Shown one piece after another: positions 43,652 through 51,089 of a stretch of 64,000 bases of DNA. The position numbers and the translations under genes are program-made. Under the pieces are notes generated by a model. The model did no database searches, was not told the DNA's origin, and saw nothing but the letters and a program-made list of their open reading frames with translations. The stretch is from an uncultured Clostridia bacterium (GTDB taxonomy: Bacteria > Bacillota > Clostridia > Oscillospirales > Acutalibacteraceae): NCBI GenBank assembly GCA_947589575.1, contig CANQBM010000009.1:1-64000 (forward strand), read 5' to 3'. How positions within the stretch are numbered: position 1 is the stretch's first letter; each line of letters starts with the position of its first letter.

Positions 43652-44085
43652 TAATGCTCTCCGCAGCACTCGCAATTACCCTCGCAAAACTGTGAAGGGT
43701 CATACTCAATGCCTTTCTTATCATAATAGTCTTTTACTGCCATTTTAACAGCCTCTTCTGCAAGAACGGAGCAGTGAATTTTAACAGGAGGCAAACCGTC
43801 AAGCGCCTCAACAACTGCCTTGTTAGTGAGCTCAAGCGCCTTGTCAATCGGCTGTCCCTTAATCATTTCGGTAGCCATTGAGCTTGACGCAATAGCGGAA
43901 GCGCAGCCGAAGGTATTAAATTTAACATCCTCGATAATTCCGTCATCTGACACTTTGATATACATTTTCATAATGTCGCCGCACTTAGCGTTACCTACTT
44001 CACCAACGCCGTCTGCGTCTTCAATTTTACCAACATTTCTTGGATTTGTAAAGTGATCCATTACTTTTTCTGAATAAAGAGCCAT
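43651..44085 (-). CDS. iscU: Fe-S cluster scaffold IscU/NifU-like
   Basis: The 144-residue scaffold has cluster ligands in NAKCGDIMKMYI (near 35), FGCASAIASSS (near 61) and KIHCSVLAEEAVKMAV (near 105), typical of the IscU-type N-domain. The C-terminal extension of about 20 residues carries three more cysteines (FCEGNCECCGEH), common in clostridial members. It receives sulfur from the NifS-type desulfurase encoded 12 bases upstream and passes clusters to targets such as NadA. Confidence 0.93.
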   Translation of the reverse strand: MALYSEKVMDHFTNPRNVGKIEDADGVGEVGNAKCGDIMKMYIKVSDDGIIEDVKFNTFGCASAIASSSMATEMIKGQPIDKALELTNKAVVEALDGLPPVKIHCSVLAEEAVKMAVKDYYDKKGIEYDPSQFCEGNCECCGEH

Positions 44086-44097
44086 AAAAATTCCTCC

Positions 44098-45276
44098 TTA
44101 ATTATTTTGTTCTTTCATTATTTTCTCCCATACAGGAGAGATGGAACGAAGATATGAAACAACCTCGGGAACTGAGTTAACAATATGTTCCATTTCCTCC
44201 ATGGTGTTGTACTCGCTGATTGATAGGCGAAGTGAGCCGTGCGCAATTTCAACAGGAACTCCGATTGAAAGAAGAACGTGCGACGGGTCAAGACTTCCGC
44301 TTGTGCACGCAGAACCGCTTGAAGCGCAAATACCACGCGCGTCAAGAAGGAGCAAAAGACTTTCTCCCTCAATCCCCTCAAAGCACATATTGAGAGTACC
44401 GGGCAAACGGTTTTCCAAATCTCCGTTAATTCTGCTTCTCTCTATTGATTTAAGTCCGTCTATAAGCCTGTCTCGCATTGCGGAGACCTTTTTTGCATTT
44501 TCCTCAAGATTTTCAACAGAGTCCTTCAAAGCCGCCGCCATACCGACAATTCCCGCAGTATTTTCCGTTCCCGCGCGCTTTCCCCGCTCCTGCGCGCCGC
44601 CCTCAATAAGATTTTTTACTGGAATACCCGTTCTTACATACAGCAGACCGACGCCTTTAGGTCCGTGAAATTTATGGGCTGATACCGAAAGCATATCAAC
44701 ATTCATATCATTAACATTTACGGGGATATGTCCTACCGCCTGTACTGCGTCTGTGTGGAAAAGAACACCCTTTTCTTTACATATCTTTCCTATTTCAGCG
44801 ATCGGCTGAATTGTGCCGATTTCATTATTAGCAGTCATAATTGTTACTAGACAGGTATCGTCGGTAATTGCCTTTTCAACATCTAAAGGCTTTACAATTC
44901 CATTTGAATAAACGTCAAGGAGCGTTACGGTAAAGCCTTCTTTTTCAAGAGCGTTTAATGTATGCAAAACGGCATGATGCTCAAATTTTGAGGATATAAT
45001 ATGCTTTTTTCCTTTTTTGGCGCCTAAATATGCCGCTGTTCTGATTGCCTGATTATCAGCTTCGCTTCCGCCTGATGTAAAATAAATTTCTTTCGGCTTT
45101 GCGCCAATCAGATTTGCAATACTTTCTCTTGCCTCTTCAAGATATTCCTTAGCCTTCTGCCCAATAGAGTGCAGAGAGGACGGATTTCCGTAATCTTCCT
45201 TTAAAAGCGGCATCATCGCATTAAGTGAATTTTCACTTAATTTTGTTGTCGCCGCATTATCAGCATATACTGTCAT
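44098..45276 (-). CDS. nifS: Cysteine desulfurase (NifS/IscS)
   Basis: The 392-residue PLP enzyme starts VYADNAATTKLS, then has NPSSLHSIGQKAKEYLEEAR, FTSGGSEADNQAI, the Schiff-base lysine in SVSAHKFHGPKGVG (near 205), and the persulfide cysteine in SSGSACTSGSLDPSHVLLSIG (near 325). It strips sulfur from cysteine for Fe-S and thio-tRNA synthesis. It is first in its operon, under a promoter carrying two copies of a 17-bp operator, the proximal one including the ribosome site. The regulator itself is not in the window. Confidence 0.95.
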   Translation of the reverse strand: MTVYADNAATTKLSENSLNAMMPLLKEDYGNPSSLHSIGQKAKEYLEEARESIANLIGAKPKEIYFTSGGSEADNQAIRTAAYLGAKKGKKHIISSKFEHHAVLHTLNALEKEGFTVTLLDVYSNGIVKPLDVEKAITDDTCLVTIMTANNEIGTIQPIAEIGKICKEKGVLFHTDAVQAVGHIPVNVNDMNVDMLSVSAHKFHGPKGVGLLYVRTGIPVKNLIEGGAQERGKRAGTENTAGIVGMAAALKDSVENLEENAKKVSAMRDRLIDGLKSIERSRINGDLENRLPGTLNMCFEGIEGESLLLLLDARGICASSGSACTSGSLDPSHVLLSIGVPVEIAHGSLRLSISEYNTMEEMEHIVNSVPEVVSYLRSISPVWEKIMKEQNN

Positions 45277-45285
45277 TTTAATTTA

Positions 45286-45302
45286 CCTACCTTTTCAATA
45301 GG
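45286..45302 (-). promoter_or_regulatory. 17-bp operator overlapping the nifS ribosome site
   Basis: CCTATTGAAAAGGTAGG on the minus strand; GGTAGG is also the apparent ribosome site, 9 bases before the nifS ATG. It differs by one base from the copy at 45321-45337. Confidence 0.65.
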
Positions 45303-45304
45303 AA

Positions 45305-45337
45305 ATAATACCACCAAAATCCTACCTTGTCAATAGG
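45305..45337 (-). promoter_or_regulatory. nifS promoter with 17-bp operator over the -35 box
   Basis: TTGACA (45333-45328) and TATTAT (45310-45305) are 17 bases apart. The operator CCTATTGACAAGGTAGG (45337-45321) contains the whole -35 box. The site type suggests an Rrf2-family (IscR/CymR-like) repressor by analogy. Confidence 0.72.
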
Positions 45338-45429
45338 AAATACATTTTTTATTATTATTTCTAAAATAAATTTAATTAACAAAAATATTTGCTTTTAATA
45401 CATTATAATAATTACTTATTCCATAAACA

Positions 45430-45460
45430 AAAACACAAAGGCAGCAAACCTTTGTGTTTT
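45430..45460 (-). terminator. Terminator after cysK
   Basis: AAAACACAAAGG and CCTTTGTGTTTT form a perfect 12-bp stem with a 7-base loop, followed by TGTTTATGG on the minus strand. Confidence 0.78.
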
Positions 45461-45476
45461 GTTATTATTGAGATTA

Positions 45477-46406
45477 TTATTCTGAAAACAGCGGAGTTGA
45501 GAGGTACCTGTCGCCCGTATCCGGTAAAAGGGCAACGATTGTTTTACCTTTATTCTCGGGTCTTTTTGCAAGCTCCTTGGCTGCCCACAAAGCAGCGCCG
45601 CTTGAAATTCCCACAAGAACGCCCTCCGCCTTTGCAAAAGCTCTGCCTGTTACAAAAGCATCGTCATTTTCTACTGTTATGATTTCATCATAAACTTCAG
45701 TATTCAACGTGTCGGGAACAAAGCCCGCGCCGATACCCTGAATCTTATGAGGTCCTGCCTCTCCCTTTGAAAGAACCGGTGAACTTGCAGGCTCTACTGC
45801 AACAATCTTTACATCGGGATTTTTAGATTTGAGATATTCGCCGACCCCCGAAATAGTACCGCCTGTACCGACACCAGCAACAAAGATGTCAACCTTGCCT
45901 TCCGTGTCATTCCAGATTTCAGGTCCCGTGGTTGCCTTATGAGTTGCAGGATTAACAGGATTAACAAACTGACCGGCAATAAAGGAATTCGGTATCTCCT
46001 TAGCAAGCTCATCAGCTTTAGCAATAGCCCCTTTCATGCCCTTTGCGCCGTCTGTAAGCACAAGCTCCGCTCCGTACGCTTTCATCAGATTACGTCTTTC
46101 AACGCTCATTGTTTCGGGCATAGTAATAATAAGTCTGTATCCCTTTGCTGCTGCAACGGCTGCAAGACCTATTCCCGTGTTACCGCTGGTAGGCTCAATG
46201 ATTACTGAGCCTTCCTTAAGTACGCCCTTTTTTTCCGCATCCTCGATAATCGCTTTCGCAATTCTGTCCTTTACTGAGCCCGCAGGATTAAAATACTCAA
46301 GCTTAACAAGAAGCTTTGCCTCTAAATTATTTTTTTTAGAAAAATTGTTTACCTCAACAAGCGGTGTATTGCCGACAAGGTCAAGTGTAGATTTATAAAT
46401 TGCCAT
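45477..46406 (-). CDS. cysK: Cysteine synthase (O-acetylserine sulfhydrylase)
   Basis: The 309-residue PLP enzyme has [10 protein letters not shown], the Schiff-base lysine in [11 protein letters not shown] (near 46), [39 protein letters not shown] and [11 protein letters not shown], all CysK signatures. It makes cysteine from O-acetylserine and sulfide. It is downstream of metY (gap 21 bases) and ends at a strong terminator; no cysE (serine acetyltransferase) is in the window. Confidence 0.95.
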
Positions 46407-46427
46407 AATATTATCTCCCTATATAAA

Positions 46428-47714
46428 TTAATCTATTTTGCTGAATGCCGTGTCTAAATCGTGAATTATATCATCAATATGCTCTGTACCGATTGAAAGT
46501 CTTATGGTATTCGGCTTTATATTCTGCTCCTCAAGCTCTTCAGGACTTAGCTGGCTGTGAGTAGTCGTAGCAGGATGAATAACAAGTGATTTAACATCAG
46601 CAACATTTGCAAGAATTGAAAAGATTTTTAAACTGTCAATAAACTGTTTTGCCTCTTTCTCGCCTCCCTTGATTTCAAAGGTAAAGATTGAGCCTGCACC
46701 ATTTGGAAAATATTTGTTGTATAAGTCCTTATATTTTTCATCAACACTCGGATGGTTTACCTTTACTACCTTTGGATTATTCAAAAGATAGCTGATAACC
46801 TTCTTTGTGTTTTCAACATGGCGCTCCACACGAAGTGAAAGCGTTTCAAGTCCCTGCAAAAGTAAAAATGCGTTAAACGGTGAAATTGCCGCTCCAGTAT
46901 CACGGAGAAGAATGGCTCGGATATAAGTTACAAATGCGGCAGGACCGGCAGCGTCAACAAAGCTGATACCGTGGTAGCTTGGATTAGACTCAGCAATCTG
47001 CGGATATTTTCCGCTTGCCTTCCAGTCAAAATTACCGCCGTCAACAATTACTCCGCCGAGAGTGGTACCGTGACCACCGATAAACTTTGTTGCCGAGTGA
47101 ACAACAATGTCTGCACCGTACTCAATAGGTCTTAAAAGATAAGGTGTTGCAAAGGTTGAATCAACAACAAGCGGGATATTGTGATTGTGGGCGATTTCGG
47201 CAAGCTTTTCAATATCTACTAAATTAGAATTCGGATTACCAAGCGTTTCAAAGAAAATTGCTTTTGTATTATCATTAATTGCGTTTTCAAAATTTGACAG
47301 GTCATCGGGGTCAACAAATGTCGTTGTAACGCCGAACTGCCTGAAAGTATGCTCAAGATAATTATATGTACCTCCGTAAATTGTCTTGGCTGATACAATG
47401 TTGTCACCGGCTGTGGCAAGCGCCTGAAATGTATAAGACAGCGCGGAAGCGCCCGAAGCGGTTGCAAGAGCCGCAACGCCGCCCTCTAAGGCTGCCACAC
47501 GTTTTTCAAATACATCCTGAGTAGAGTTTGTAAGCCTGCCGTAGATATTTCCGGCATCAGACAGATTAAATCTTGCCTGTGCGTGTTCACTGTTTCTGAA
47601 CACATATGATGTTGTTTGATAAATCGGAACCGCCCTTGAATCAGTTGCCGGATCGGGCTCTTCCTGTCCTACGTGAAGCTGTAATGTTTCAAAATGATAT
47701 TTATATTCTGACAT
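46428..47714 (-). CDS. metY: O-acetylhomoserine (thiol)-lyase
   Basis: The 428-residue Cys/Met-metabolism PLP enzyme has YQTTSYVFRNSEHAQARF, GRLTNSTQDVFEKRVAALEGG, VVDSTFATPYLLRPIEYGADIVVHSATKFIGGHG with the Schiff-base lysine near 208, and NVADVKSLVIHPATTTHSQL. Length and the latter motif fit MetY, which makes homocysteine (or methionine) from O-acetylhomoserine and sulfide. The ribosome site is AAAGGA, 11 bases from the ATG. The leader contains a 23-codon ORF rich in terminal cysteines, plus the 17-bp operator shared with nifS. Confidence 0.93.
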   Translation of the reverse strand: MSEYKYHFETLQLHVGQEEPDPATDSRAVPIYQTTSYVFRNSEHAQARFNLSDAGNIYGRLTNSTQDVFEKRVAALEGGVAALATASGASALSYTFQALATAGDNIVSAKTIYGGTYNYLEHTFRQFGVTTTFVDPDDLSNFENAINDNTKAIFFETLGNPNSNLVDIEKLAEIAHNHNIPLVVDSTFATPYLLRPIEYGADIVVHSATKFIGGHGTTLGGVIVDGGNFDWKASGKYPQIAESNPSYHGISFVDAAGPAAFVTYIRAILLRDTGAAISPFNAFLLLQGLETLSLRVERHVENTKKVISYLLNNPKVVKVNHPSVDEKYKDLYNKYFPNGAGSIFTFEIKGGEKEAKQFIDSLKIFSILANVADVKSLVIHPATTTHSQLSPEELEEQNIKPNTIRLSIGTEHIDDIIHDLDTAFSKID

Positions 47715-47762
47715 AATTATTATATTCCTTTCGTGTTATAGCTTAATTAATGTTATTTAAGA

Positions 47763-47834
47763 TTAGCAACATCGAAAGCACATTCGCTCATTTTTATAAT
47801 TACTGTCTAAAAGCTTTGAAAATGTTTTACTCAT
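47763..47834 (-). CDS. Cysteine-rich leader peptide upstream of metY
   Basis: A 23-codon ORF starts at the ATG at 47834, with a near-perfect ribosome site (AGGAGGGAAGAAA) in front, stronger than metY's own. It starts MSKTFSKLL and ends ERMCFRCC, then TAA. Three of the last five codons are cysteine. The stop lies 48 bases before metY, and no terminator-like hairpin is seen in those 48 bases, so control would act through ribosome stalling on metY translation or through Rho. This is the form of an amino-acid-responsive leader; function is inferred. Confidence 0.65.
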   Translation of the reverse strand: MSKTFSKLLDSNYKNERMCFRCC

Positions 47835-47851
47835 TTTCTTCCCTCCTATTA

Positions 47852-47868
47852 CCTACTATATCGGTAGG
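47852..47868 (-). promoter_or_regulatory. 17-bp operator in the metY leader
   Basis: CCTACCGATATAGTAGG (minus strand), an inverted repeat CCTAC-N7-GTAGG, lies about 11-27 bases after the expected transcript start and matches the two nifS sites. Confidence 0.68.
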
Positions 47869-47885
47869 CTTTCTGTGTTTTCTAT

Positions 47886-47914
47886 ACTATACATCATCTT
47901 CAATGCATTGTCAA
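47886..47914 (-). promoter_or_regulatory. metY-cysK promoter
   Basis: TTGACA (47914-47909) and TATAGT (47891-47886) are 17 bases apart. The -35 box sits in CCTATTGACA (47918-47909), an exact half of the nifS operator. Confidence 0.78.
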
Positions 47915-47985
47915 TAGGATTTCAGGAAAAATTTGAATATTTTTTTGTGAGTTTTTTATTTATAACTAATTAATAAATATGTAAA

Positions 47986-48014
47986 AAAGTCAAAGCAAAA
48001 ACTGCTTTGACTTT
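47986..48014. terminator. Terminator after the Fe-ADH gene
   Basis: AAAGTCAAAGCA and TGCTTTGACTTT pair perfectly around a 5-base loop, overlapping the stop codon; TTTTTAC follows on the minus strand. Confidence 0.75.
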
Positions 48015-49035
48015 AATTTATATTCATAAATGAGCGGTAAATATTTTCAATATCATCATAATCAAATTTCATAGGATGATTACTCATACGTTTTATATTA
48101 ACTCCGCTTATACATTCTTCAAGCTCATTTTCTGTGAGGTTCAAATCATCACAAAGATTCAAATTTTTCAATAAAATCTGAAAAGATTGAGGAGTAAAAC
48201 CTGAAATAATTTCAGTCTCCGCAAGAAGAATTTCAAGCTCGGCTGTTTTGCAGTTTTCAAGCATATACTGCCAAATGTACGCAAGACAGAGCGCCACTGC
48301 CTGACCGTGGGAATATCCCTTCAGTTTATGAAGTTTATAGCTCATTGCGTGCGGAGCGGCAGTCTGCGCAATATTAATTGCCCTCCCCGCAAGTTCACTG
48401 CATTTCATCATCGGCTCGTACGATGATTTATCATCATCAAGATATTTTGTAAAATATTTATTGAAAAGCTCAAGAGCCTCTGCCGAATATTTCCTACTCT
48501 CATCTGTTGCATCTGACGACCAGTAAGCCTCTATACTGTGTGAAAAGGCATCAAGACCCGTTACGACTCTTTGATAATGCGCAAGAGAAGCAAGAGTAGT
48601 ACAATCAAACACCGCAAAATCGGGAATTATGTCATAACTTCTTACGGATTCCTTATCGCCGTGATTATAAAGCACCGCAAAACGTGTAACCTCCGCCCCT
48701 GTTCCTGCGGTTGTAGGAACAGCAAGAATTTTTACATCGGACTTTGAAAAAAATTTTATTGCTTTTGCAACATCTATTGCGCTTCCGCCGCCTACAGTTA
48801 CTATAAAATCACACTTTTCTTTTTTAAAAACATCAACGCCTGCCATTACGGACGATACCTCGGGACAAGGCTCAAAATCCGTAAATGCGACACTTCCAAA
48901 AGAAAGCTCGTCAATAGCCTTTCTGTATCCGAACCTGTCATACTCACGGCTTGCCACAAACAGAATTTTTTTCGGCTTTTTAACGGTTAACATTGATTTA
49001 AACTGATTAACATATTTATCATTTTCATAAATCAT
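48013..49035 (-). CDS. Iron-containing alcohol dehydrogenase family protein
   Basis: The 340-residue protein has the nucleotide motif VGGGSAIDVAKAI near residue 88, PTTAGTGAEVTRFAV near 118, the metal ligands in GLDAFSHSIEAYWS (Asp and His) and in APHAMSYKLHKLKGYSHGQAVALCL (two His). It is shorter than typical group III alcohol dehydrogenases (about 380) and resembles the phosphonate or hydroxyacid branch. The substrate is not predictable. It starts 4 bases after ispE in lrp-aminotransferase-ispE-ADH. Confidence 0.85.
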   Translation of the reverse strand: MIYENDKYVNQFKSMLTVKKPKKILFVASREYDRFGYRKAIDELSFGSVAFTDFEPCPEVSSVMAGVDVFKKEKCDFIVTVGGGSAIDVAKAIKFFSKSDVKILAVPTTAGTGAEVTRFAVLYNHGDKESVRSYDIIPDFAVFDCTTLASLAHYQRVVTGLDAFSHSIEAYWSSDATDESRKYSAEALELFNKYFTKYLDDDKSSYEPMMKCSELAGRAINIAQTAAPHAMSYKLHKLKGYSHGQAVALCLAYIWQYMLENCKTAELEILLAETEIISGFTPQSFQILLKNLNLCDDLNLTENELEECISGVNIKRMSNHPMKFDYDDIENIYRSFMNIN

Positions 49036-49039
49036 AAAA

Positions 49040-49912
49040 TCACTTCACAATCCTACAGCCCTTTGATACAGGGACTGTAACCGCAATATCCTTAGCATAT
49101 GTATCGAGCATTTTGGCTGCTGTATGCGCTTTTGTCTTGTCGTTAAATATGCCGAAAACAGTCGGACCGCTGCCGCTCATACAAACGCCGAGCGCGCCGT
49201 TTTCACGCATTATGCTTTTTATATCAACCTTATTCGGCACATCAATAAACTGCTCAAAAACATTTTCCATTCTTGATGAAATATCCGCAATATCCCTGCC
49301 CTGCATTGCGCAAAGCATACCTAATTTGTCAGGGGTGTGTACCTTATTACACTCATCAAATTGCTTATAAGCATAAGCCGTGTTTACGCTTACATCGGGC
49401 TTGGCAATAAGTATAAAACAGCGTTTCAGCGGCTTGACCTTATTAAGCACATCACCTATTCCCTGAGCGAGAAGGGTGCCTCCCCTGATACAAAACGGCA
49501 CGTCCGCGCCGATTTTAACTCCTATATTACACAGTTCATCATCAGTAAGTTCTGCACCGGTAAGCTCGTTAAGAGCGACAAGTACGCCCGCGCCGTCAGC
49601 GCTTCCTCCCGCAAGACCTGCCGCATGGGGTATTCTTTTTATAATATCAATATTAATACCCTCGTTTTTAATTTTTGTTGATTTAAAAAATTCCGATGCC
49701 GCTTTATACGCAATATTTCTTTCATCTAAAGGTATATCTTCAATATTACAGGAAATTGTTATTTTTTTCGATTTTGTCCAAGTAACCGTAACAGTATCAT
49801 AAAGACCTATGCTCTGCATAATCATAAACAAATCGTGGTAGCCGTCAGCACGCTTTGCAACGATGTCAAGCATTAAATTAATTTTAGCGTATGCCTTAAC
49901 CTTAATCTCCAT
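49040..49912 (-). CDS. ispE: 4-diphosphocytidyl-2-C-methyl-D-erythritol kinase
   Basis: The 290-residue GHMP kinase starts KVKAYAKINLMLDI, has PHAAGLAGGSADGAGVLVAL near residue 92 (ATP-binding GLGGGSSN-type motif) and GVCMSGSGPTVFGIF near 250. It phosphorylates CDP-methylerythritol in the non-mevalonate isoprenoid pathway. The frame extends to 49924, but GGAG lies 6 bases before the ATG at 49912. It overlaps the end of the aminotransferase gene by 11 bases. Confidence 0.94.
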   Translation of the reverse strand: MEIKVKAYAKINLMLDIVAKRADGYHDLFMIMQSIGLYDTVTVTWTKSKKITISCNIEDIPLDERNIAYKAASEFFKSTKIKNEGINIDIIKRIPHAAGLAGGSADGAGVLVALNELTGAELTDDELCNIGVKIGADVPFCIRGGTLLAQGIGDVLNKVKPLKRCFILIAKPDVSVNTAYAYKQFDECNKVHTPDKLGMLCAMQGRDIADISSRMENVFEQFIDVPNKVDIKSIMRENGALGVCMSGSGPTVFGIFNDKTKAHTAAKMLDTYAKDIAVTVPVSKGCRIVK

Positions 49913-51089
49913 TAAAAACTCCAAGTTCTTTTAAAAATTCACTAATACGCTTAACAGCTTCTCTGATATTGTCTATCGAGTAGCAATATGAAACGCGAAT
50001 AAAACCCTCACCGCTGTCGCCAAAAGCATTTCCCGGAACAACGGCAACACGCTTGCTCATTATAAGTCTTTCACAAAATTCTTCAGAAGAAAGACCTGTT
50101 GATTTGATACAAGGGAAAATATAGAATGCACCTTCAGGCTCAAAACAGTCAAGACCTATTTCACGAAAAGCATTAACCGCATATCTTCTTCTCATATCAT
50201 AATCAAGAATCATTTTCCGTATATCTTCATCTCCGTTGCGAAGCGCCTCAATAGCTGCCTGCTGGGAAGTAGTCGGAGCCGACATAATAGCATATTGATG
50301 CAGTTTTGTCATCTGTTTAATAACAGGCTCGGGTCCCAATGCGTAACCCAATCTCCACCCTGTCATCGAATATGTTTTGGAAAATCCGTTGATAACAACA
50401 GTTCTCTCCTTCATTCCCGTAACAGCCGCAATAGAAAAATGCTTTTGATCTCCGTAAGTCAGCTCACTGTATATTTCATCGGAAAGAACAAATAGATTAT
50501 GTGACTTAATCACCTTTGAAATAGCAACAAGGTCATCCTTACGCATAACGGCGCCTGTGGGATTATTAGGATACGGTAGAATAAGTAATTTTGTTTTGTC
50601 AGTAACGGCGTCCTCAAGCTCCTTAGCGGTAAGCCTGAAATTGTTTTCGTTTTTCGTTTCAAGAGGTACGGCAACGCCGCCGCACATCTCAACTATCGGC
50701 TTATAGCAGACAAATGACGGCTCAATAACAAGCACCTCGTCGCCCGGACACACAAGCGAGCGTATGCACATATCTATGCCCTCAGAGCCTCCGACGGTTA
50801 CAGTTATTTCATTTTTGGGATCATATTTAACATTATATTTTCTGTTATAAAATCTTGAGATTTCTTCTCTTAAAGTTATAAGTCCTGCGTTTGCGGTATA
50901 TCTTGTAGCTCCGCGCTCAAGATTTTCAATACCCTTTTGGCGTATATGCCATGGAGTCAGGAAATCAGGCTCGCCTACGCCGAGTGAGATAACATTGTCC
51001 ATTTCCTCGGCAATAGAGAAAAATTTTCTAATTCCGCTCGGCTTAATATTTAAAATTCTTTCATTCAAAAATTCTTCGTAGTTAATCAA
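49902..51089 (-). CDS. Class I/II pyridoxal-phosphate aminotransferase
   Basis: The 395-residue enzyme has ISLGVGEPDFLTPWHI near residue 34, GATRYTANAGLITLREEI, PYPNNPTGAVM near 172, SDEIYSELTYG near 203, the Schiff-base lysine in NGFSKTYSMTGWRLGYALG (near 235) and FIRVSYCYSIDNI with the carboxylate-binding Arg. Such enzymes use aspartate, alanine or aromatic amino acids. The upstream overlapping lrp-type gene recalls the B. subtilis alaR-alaT pair, so alanine is a reasonable guess. It overlaps lrp by four bases. Confidence 0.9.
   Translation of the reverse strand: MINYEEFLNERILNIKPSGIRKFFSIAEEMDNVISLGVGEPDFLTPWHIRQKGIENLERGATRYTANAGLITLREEISRFYNRKYNVKYDPKNEITVTVGGSEGIDMCIRSLVCPGDEVLVIEPSFVCYKPIVEMCGGVAVPLETKNENNFRLTAKELEDAVTDKTKLLILPYPNNPTGAVMRKDDLVAISKVIKSHNLFVLSDEIYSELTYGDQKHFSIAAVTGMKERTVVINGFSKTYSMTGWRLGYALGPEPVIKQMTKLHQYAIMSAPTTSQQAAIEALRNGDEDIRKMILDYDMRRRYAVNAFREIGLDCFEPEGAFYIFPCIKSTGLSSEEFCERLIMSKRVAVVPGNAFGDSGEGFIRVSYCYSIDNIREAVKRISEFLKELGVFNGD

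Follow-up and report, generated by a model that had tools for sequence, protein, structure and literature searches.

The metY and cysK genes in the window, that is, the whole 64,000-nucleotide stretch of clostridial DNA analyzed here, are preceded by a short ORF that probably acts as a translational attenuator sensing shortage of methionine and cysteine, as judged from its sequence and from those of its relatives. The invariant element of the leader family to which this ORF belongs is CGA-ATG (Arg-Met), not Cys.

The leader ORF lies at positions 47763-47834 on the minus strand and consists of 23 codons followed by TAA, encoding the peptide MSKTFSKLLDSNYKNERMCFRCC with Cys at codons 19, 22 and 23. 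Its stop codon is separated by 48 nt from the ATG of metY (46428-47714, minus strand), which encodes an O-acetylhomoserine sulfhydrylase (TIGR01326, 614.4 bits, above cut-off), and metY is followed by cysK (45477-46406, minus strand), encoding cysteine synthase A (TIGR01139, 468.4 bits, above cut-off). An earlier note on this DNA had described a 23-codon ORF with a strong ribosome site and a Cys-rich end in front of metY-cysK, an upstream promoter and the lack of a terminator hairpin, and these elements were all recovered. The leader Shine-Dalgarno sequence AGGAGGGAAG (47838-47847, minus strand) lies just upstream of the ORF; a consensus scan placed the promoter of the leader-metY transcript, TTGACA-17-TATAGT, at 47914-47886 on the minus strand (11 of 12 matches); and no terminator-like hairpin was detected on the minus strand of 47700-48020. 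The end of the ORF contains CGA-ATG (47781-47786, minus strand), in which a presumably slow Arg codon stands before the Met codon, then Cys codon 19 (TGC, 47778-47780, minus strand), and then CGA-TGT (47769-47774, minus strand), where a putatively slow Arg codon precedes Cys codon 22. When the 300 nt upstream of metY were shuffled with preservation of dinucleotides, none of 20000 shuffles yielded a comparable ORF, defined as one of 10-40 aa that follows GGAGG or AGGAG and has at least three Cys among its last six codons; together with the presence of the leader at 45 of 60 metY loci of the genus, this result led us to reject a chance ORF. The leader peptide matched none of the Pfam and NCBIfam families, and an Rfam search of 44000-50000 revealed no T-box or SAM riboswitch among the matches up to E = 5, so that a known small protein or riboswitch was likewise rejected.

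Conservation of a Cys-rich ORF with its own Shine-Dalgarno site and ATG before metY in relatives had been suggested as a check, and such conservation was found. In the genus set, comprising 80 genomes searched for metY upstream regions, a leader with CGAATG was present at 45 of the 60 metY loci that had 150 nt or more of upstream sequence, and all 45 leaders have Cys after Arg-Met, counts that do not represent independent events because the leader sequences are related. The leader is absent from the other 15 loci; at seven of these (L220, L221, L223, L225, L230, L232 and L233) iscU immediately precedes metY. A profile built from 22 leader peptides matched 25 places at E ≤ 2.2e-5 in the genus and 29 places with loci, at E values from 2.1e-10 to 2.6e-3, in a class sample of 391 genomes. 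Among the 35 loci that were examined out of the 59 returned by two profile searches, metY was the next gene in 30, and the other five comprised one MetQ/NlpA-family lipoprotein gene, one gene for a sulfate ABC transporter binding protein, two contig ends and one spurious match. Upstream regions were also collected by searching genome contigs for the metY protein, with 80 of 156 loci kept; among these, the Parabacteroides- and Prevotella-labelled metY loci that were inspected by eye showed no such leader.

To identify what is constant in these regions, we ranked 6-mers in 142 distinct metY upstream regions. CGAATG (Arg-Met) was second, present in 93 of the 142, between AAAGGA (97) and TTGACA (87); eight of the regions with CGAATG had no leader under our filter, and by eye seven of these contain leaders with a weaker site. 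Arg codons were then counted in all Shine-Dalgarno-led ORFs of 8-46 aa in the 142 regions, without motif selection, to avoid the bias of the set of 89 metY leaders used below, which are Shine-Dalgarno-led ORFs picked by CGAATG, CGGATG or GTCATG. CGA accounts for 85 of 88 Arg codons before Met and 47 of 58 before Cys in these small ORFs, and for 31 of 276 before any other codon. The metY genes behind the leaders (n = 87) use CGA for 22 of 1004 Arg codons and for none of six before Met; similarly, window ORFs of at least 150 aa use it for 19 of 695, and for none of the 19 that precede Met or the 10 that precede Cys. The same preference is evident within single peptides: N-[FYW]-R-x-G-R-M occurs in 32 leaders, where its first Arg is encoded by AGA (14), CGT (7), CGA (5), AGG (4), CGG (1) or CGC (1), and its second by CGA in 31. 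The Collinsella leader MNCLPRRMPGSCLRPSA (L033 and other Collinsella loci) retains AGA-CGA-ATG, with CGA before Met. Exceptions to CGA occur in Spirochaete-labelled leaders, three of which have GTC-ATG and one CGG-ATG.

The second CGA is tied to the first in frame. All 40 copies of CGATGTTG (Arg-Cys), located with no ORF required, follow a CGAATG at spacings divisible by three, namely 6, 9, 12, 15, 18, 24 or 36 nt from the nearest one. No other feature points as strongly to an element that acts by translation. The Cys codon after CGA is TGT in 47 of 47 cases; metY genes favor TGC (21 vs 6), and CGA-TGC occurs in the L110 leader, outside the set of 47. The codon following CGA-Cys begins with TG in 38 of the 47, whatever it encodes. 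The sensing of Cys-tRNA proposed in the earlier note remains a tenable idea for this locus, in whose lineage Cys was found in 45 of 45 leaders; it does not extend to the whole family, in which 11 of the 89 metY leaders contain no Cys after Arg-Met. In 12 of the 35 examined leader-search loci the leader terminates in GRM-stop, leaving no Cys after Arg-Met, and Cys alone as the conserved signal of the family was rejected on account of these GRM-stop leaders. The leaders lacking Cys, the GRM-stop form before a MetQ/NlpA-family lipoprotein gene and the Cys versions before cysK favor a response to methionine shortage, to which most leaders would add cysteine as a second signal, over a response to cysteine alone.

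Beyond these codons, the leader peptides differ between lineages. Peptides of the window's kind have the forms FSKLL..N.KN.RMCFRCC and F..LLR.NFR.GRM, and the other metY leaders include YSS[FY].RM.RC, [YF]A[SA]LFEMRMC..RC and the Collinsella form, as well as single forms such as LHLLCRM-stop and that of L409. The same CGA-ATG is present in mutually dissimilar metY leader peptides (YSSY.RM.RC, ALFEMRM, MNCLPRRMPGSC, LHLLCRM-stop and L409), and a conserved nascent peptide is found within the NFRxGRM lineage and not across lineages. Overall, the family spans at least four dissimilar peptides and occurs in Clostridia and in Collinsella/Slackia.

The sensor codons fit the gene downstream: Met, with or without Cys, precedes metY and one MetQ-type lipoprotein gene, and Cys precedes cysK. 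CGA-Cys occurs in seven cysK leaders, six of which have no Arg-Met. Examination of 89 cysK upstream regions gave a CGA-Cys call in five (L257, L268, L269, L316 and L326, the last being doubtful, at a distance of 162 nt) and none in 84; other Arg codons before Cys numbered five in the same regions. Searches for a Shine-Dalgarno sequence, ATG and a motif were carried out in 371 genomes for CGATGTTG and in 366 for CGAATGTG, each returning 30 loci. Two of the CGATGTTG loci were in frame, both inside longer genes, and were dismissed as chance. Four of the CGAATGTG loci were in frame, namely the metY leaders L406 and L409, the latter a new peptide unlike the others located 36 nt before metY, one match inside a longer gene, and one longer than 46 aa. 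Five further regions from the motif searches included the new metY leader L423 and the new cysK leaders L421 (MIIVKHERC-stop) and L422 (MCIIRNKERCCR-stop), with cysK 49 and 115 nt downstream, respectively; these two, short in-frame candidates from the CGATGTTG search, were chosen before their surroundings were known, yet they resembled L257, and the guess was thus not blind. A genome-wide search for CGAATGN{0,12}CGATGTTG, the source of L208 (a cysK leader) and L209, found 65 matches, spread over 58 of 391 genomes, against about 66 in its reversed control; since the counts are alike, we discarded these matches as new target genes, most being attributable to chance. The lipoprotein case is L424, in which positions 135-191 encode the leader MSIIFTRLVRENFRFGRM-stop, of the GRM-stop type and without Cys, 51 nt before a MetQ/NlpA-family gene. 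It is a single example, because none of the 30 best-scoring MetQ upstream regions, taken with approximate gene starts, contained a CGA-Met/Cys leader. Another single example, L159 (1501-1590), is a leader containing NWRNGRMCNIC before the gene for a sulfate ABC transporter binding protein.

Transcription of these leaders shows common features as well. Of the 89 metY leaders, 81 have TTGAC no more than 110 nt from their start, and 52 have CCTA-N6-12-TAGG within the 70 nt upstream of that start. In the window, the inverted repeat CCTACTATATCGGTAGG (47852-47868) sits between promoter and leader and looks like an Rrf2/CymR-type operator, the candidate regulator being assigned by this resemblance, from which it follows that transcription and translation may both be under sulfur control. 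Three Rrf2 matches were found in the window's genome. Repeats resembling CCTACTATATCGGTAGG are also visible before four cysK leaders.

The leader tail is complementary to the region that would have to be accessible for metY translation. In the window, the leader arm GTGCTTTCGATGTTGC (47766-47781, minus strand), which runs from the final base of the Met codon through the C-F-R-C-C codons, forms a predicted duplex of -10.9 kcal/mol with the metY Shine-Dalgarno arm TAACACGAAAGGAA (47725-47738, minus strand), and none of 100 shuffles was as good. This complementarity is in line with the earlier suggestion that the leader might act on metY translation. The same helix is found in several relatives in the genus, and L006 and L131 share, by eye, a compensating T-A to A-T change. 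In a second lineage, designated EMRM, the codons before and at Arg-Met are those that pair with the Shine-Dalgarno region. The duplex test found yet other codons involved in the Spirochaete-labelled L046 and L056, and folding of these whole leaders left the site mostly open (0.62 and 0.72). We compared 81 leaders (the 89 minus six over the length limit and two with no metY site called) with footprint shuffles, and in 27 the Shine-Dalgarno site was at or below the 5% tail, where about 4 were expected (Wilcoxon p = 1.3e-5, for sequences that are not independent). By group, the tail contained 9 of 10 EMRM leaders, 7 of 19 in the FRC group, whose regular expression includes three NFRCGRM leaders, 6 of 17 other NxRxGRM leaders with a tail, 2 of 9 YSS, 2 of 12 Collinsella and 0 of 7 Cys-less GRM-stop leaders.

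Unpaired probability of the site was then modelled for the free leader and for a ribosome at codon 4 (the control), at Met or at the last Cys. The means for all 87 leaders were 0.41 free, 0.35 at codon 4, 0.58 at Met and 0.50 at the last Cys. The EMRM leaders gave 0.17, 0.09, 0.68 and 0.17, respectively, and the difference between 0.68 at Met and 0.17 at the last Cys implies that in this model only a ribosome near Met frees the site. The FRC leaders, which are of the window's own type (n = 17), gave 0.47, 0.47, 0.61 and 0.63, with five of the 17 going down on the modelled stall at Met (L003, from 0.29 to 0.06, L006, L008, L012 and L014), and the window's leader gave 0.48 free, 0.79 at Met and 0.84 at the last Cys. 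No sequestration was found in the GRM-stop leaders (n = 8; 0.66 free, 0.70 at codon 4 and 0.68 at Met). RNAalifold returned no Shine-Dalgarno helix for the FRC alignment, which may be due to differences in gap length, and weak covariation for EMRM, with one of 17 pairs doubly changed. The hairpin test detected an intrinsic terminator before metY in three of the 89 leaders (L022, L023 and L168), from which we infer that a single leader type can probably drive either output, terminator or translation. These three terminators also suggest that the output mechanism may switch between lineages.

In the mechanism that we propose, ribosomes would start at the strong leader Shine-Dalgarno site. With Met-tRNA and Cys-tRNA plentiful, the ribosome would read to the stop codon and leave, after which the last leader codons would pair with the metY Shine-Dalgarno region and metY translation would be held down. 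When either amino acid runs short, the ribosome would pause once the Met (or Cys) codon has entered the A site; there its footprint would cover the anti-Shine-Dalgarno codons, and metY would be translated. The P site of the paused ribosome would hold CGA, presumably read by inosine wobble, which would slow the step that follows and so render it highly sensitive to the supply of charged tRNA. In Salmonella, CGU, CGC and CGA are described as being read by the same tRNAs, with CGA slow in a his-leader assay (PMC4046918), and in yeast P-site CGA is described as destabilizing elongation via the I-A wobble pair, with an influence of the tRNA supply for the next codon (PMC6301793). Bacterial CGA before a starved codon may behave by analogy as it does in yeast. 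The window's genome contains a TadA-type match that scores 149.3 bits, slightly short of the curated cut-off (150), and the matching stretch includes two stop codons. A general codon-syntax rule can be advanced tentatively, in which leaders of sulfur amino-acid genes have CGA directly on the 5' side of the sensing codon. The P-site I-A pair formed by CGA could allow just one Met or Cys codon to serve as a hypersensitive sensor of charged tRNA, the amino acid that follows setting the response.

We weighed this attenuator against other readings of the same data. TnaC is a ribosome arrest peptide that responds to tryptophan, and the nascent F..LLR.NFR.GRM peptide could likewise stall the ribosome on a sulfur metabolite, the Cys tail being secondary. 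That N-[FYW]-R-x-G-R-M is kept in 32 leaders with synonymous variation of its N, F/Y, first R and G codons, that it recurs at Lachnospiraceae-, Acetatifactor- and Spirochaete-labelled metY loci, and that the exact GRM-stop end occurs in 12 of 35 examined leaders would all suit such a peptide; however, dissimilar peptides before metY carry the same CGA-ATG, and a peptide leaves the fixation of CGA at the codon level unexplained. We regard arrest as rather unlikely. If CGAAUGUG/CGAUGUUG were instead a site for a protein, a small RNA or an RNase, with the reading frame incidental, the TGT after CGA, with CGA-TGC in the one further leader L110, and the TG that begins most of the next codons irrespective of their meaning would be accounted for. 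Such a nucleotide motif is nevertheless improbable in view of 40 spacings that are all multiples of three and take seven different lengths, of the location of most copies within Shine-Dalgarno-led ORFs and of the fit between the sensor amino acid and the downstream gene.

An attenuator that responds to cysteine only and acts via Rho, one of the options in the earlier note, or via mRNA decay, not through the Shine-Dalgarno site, agrees with the Cys present in every one of the 45 genus leaders and with the absence of an intrinsic terminator at the window locus, and the mycobacterial cys leaders, too, are described as having no hairpins (PMC1262725). The 11 leaders with no Cys after Arg-Met and the complementarity between leader tail and Shine-Dalgarno site speak against it, and we give this reading little credence. 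An attenuator sensing both methionine and cysteine remains our preferred explanation.

Polycysteine leaderless short ORFs have reportedly been described in mycobacteria by Canestrari and colleagues in 2020. Judged by the features named in the title of that paper, the window ORF is not of the leaderless polycysteine kind, having its own Shine-Dalgarno sequence and a Met before three scattered Cys. The mycobacterial ORFs, whose action has been termed translation attenuation (PMC13236596), resemble the present family in that short ORFs with cysteine codons stand in front of cysteine genes; our family differs in being Shine-Dalgarno-led, in its invariant Met, in CGA before the sensors, in its genes (metY and cysK) and in its distribution in Clostridia and Collinsella/Slackia. 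Leader peptides with runs of Cys are described before the cys operons of Mycobacterium and P. acnes and cbs of B. longum (PMC1262725); these are also Cys-rich with no conserved terminator, and they differ in their genes and in that the features described include no Met/CGA rule. In Rhodobacterales, uORFC-8-2 before cysS is described as having tandem Cys codons and an intrinsic terminator (PMC8632094), and like our leaders it is a Cys-containing uORF that belongs to a gene linked to cysteine; the terminator sets it apart, as we found one in three of 89 metY leaders. The Cys T-box before cysK/cysP of Clostridium perfringens, described as sensing tRNA-Cys charging (PMC2940859), has cysK among its genes as well, unlike the window locus in being a T-box, for which the latter gave no match. 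Cys leaders are, according to the sources cited, already known in Actinobacteria and Rhodobacterales. Titles and abstract openings, with subscription papers mostly outside this coverage, contained no metY leader of such a kind and no CGA before sensor codons. As in a classical transcription attenuator, the window's leader has sensor codons for its pathway (Met and Cys), and unlike one it has no intrinsic terminator. In the erm and cat translational attenuators, a ribosome stalled on the leader frees a sequestered Shine-Dalgarno site; the release proposed here is the same, with a lack of amino acids as the presumed signal in place of a drug.

Leaders that sense amino acids usually depend on runs of sensor codons. 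The family described here seems to need one or a few, with the same slow codon before them. If the codon-syntax rule is true, sensors would be findable and readable by searching for CGA together with the product's codon, and the leader family would provide a searchable signature for control by Met and Cys in gut bacteria. It would also constitute a natural test of the tuning of A-site decoding by a P-site wobble pair, which in yeast was studied with CGA codon-pair reporters.
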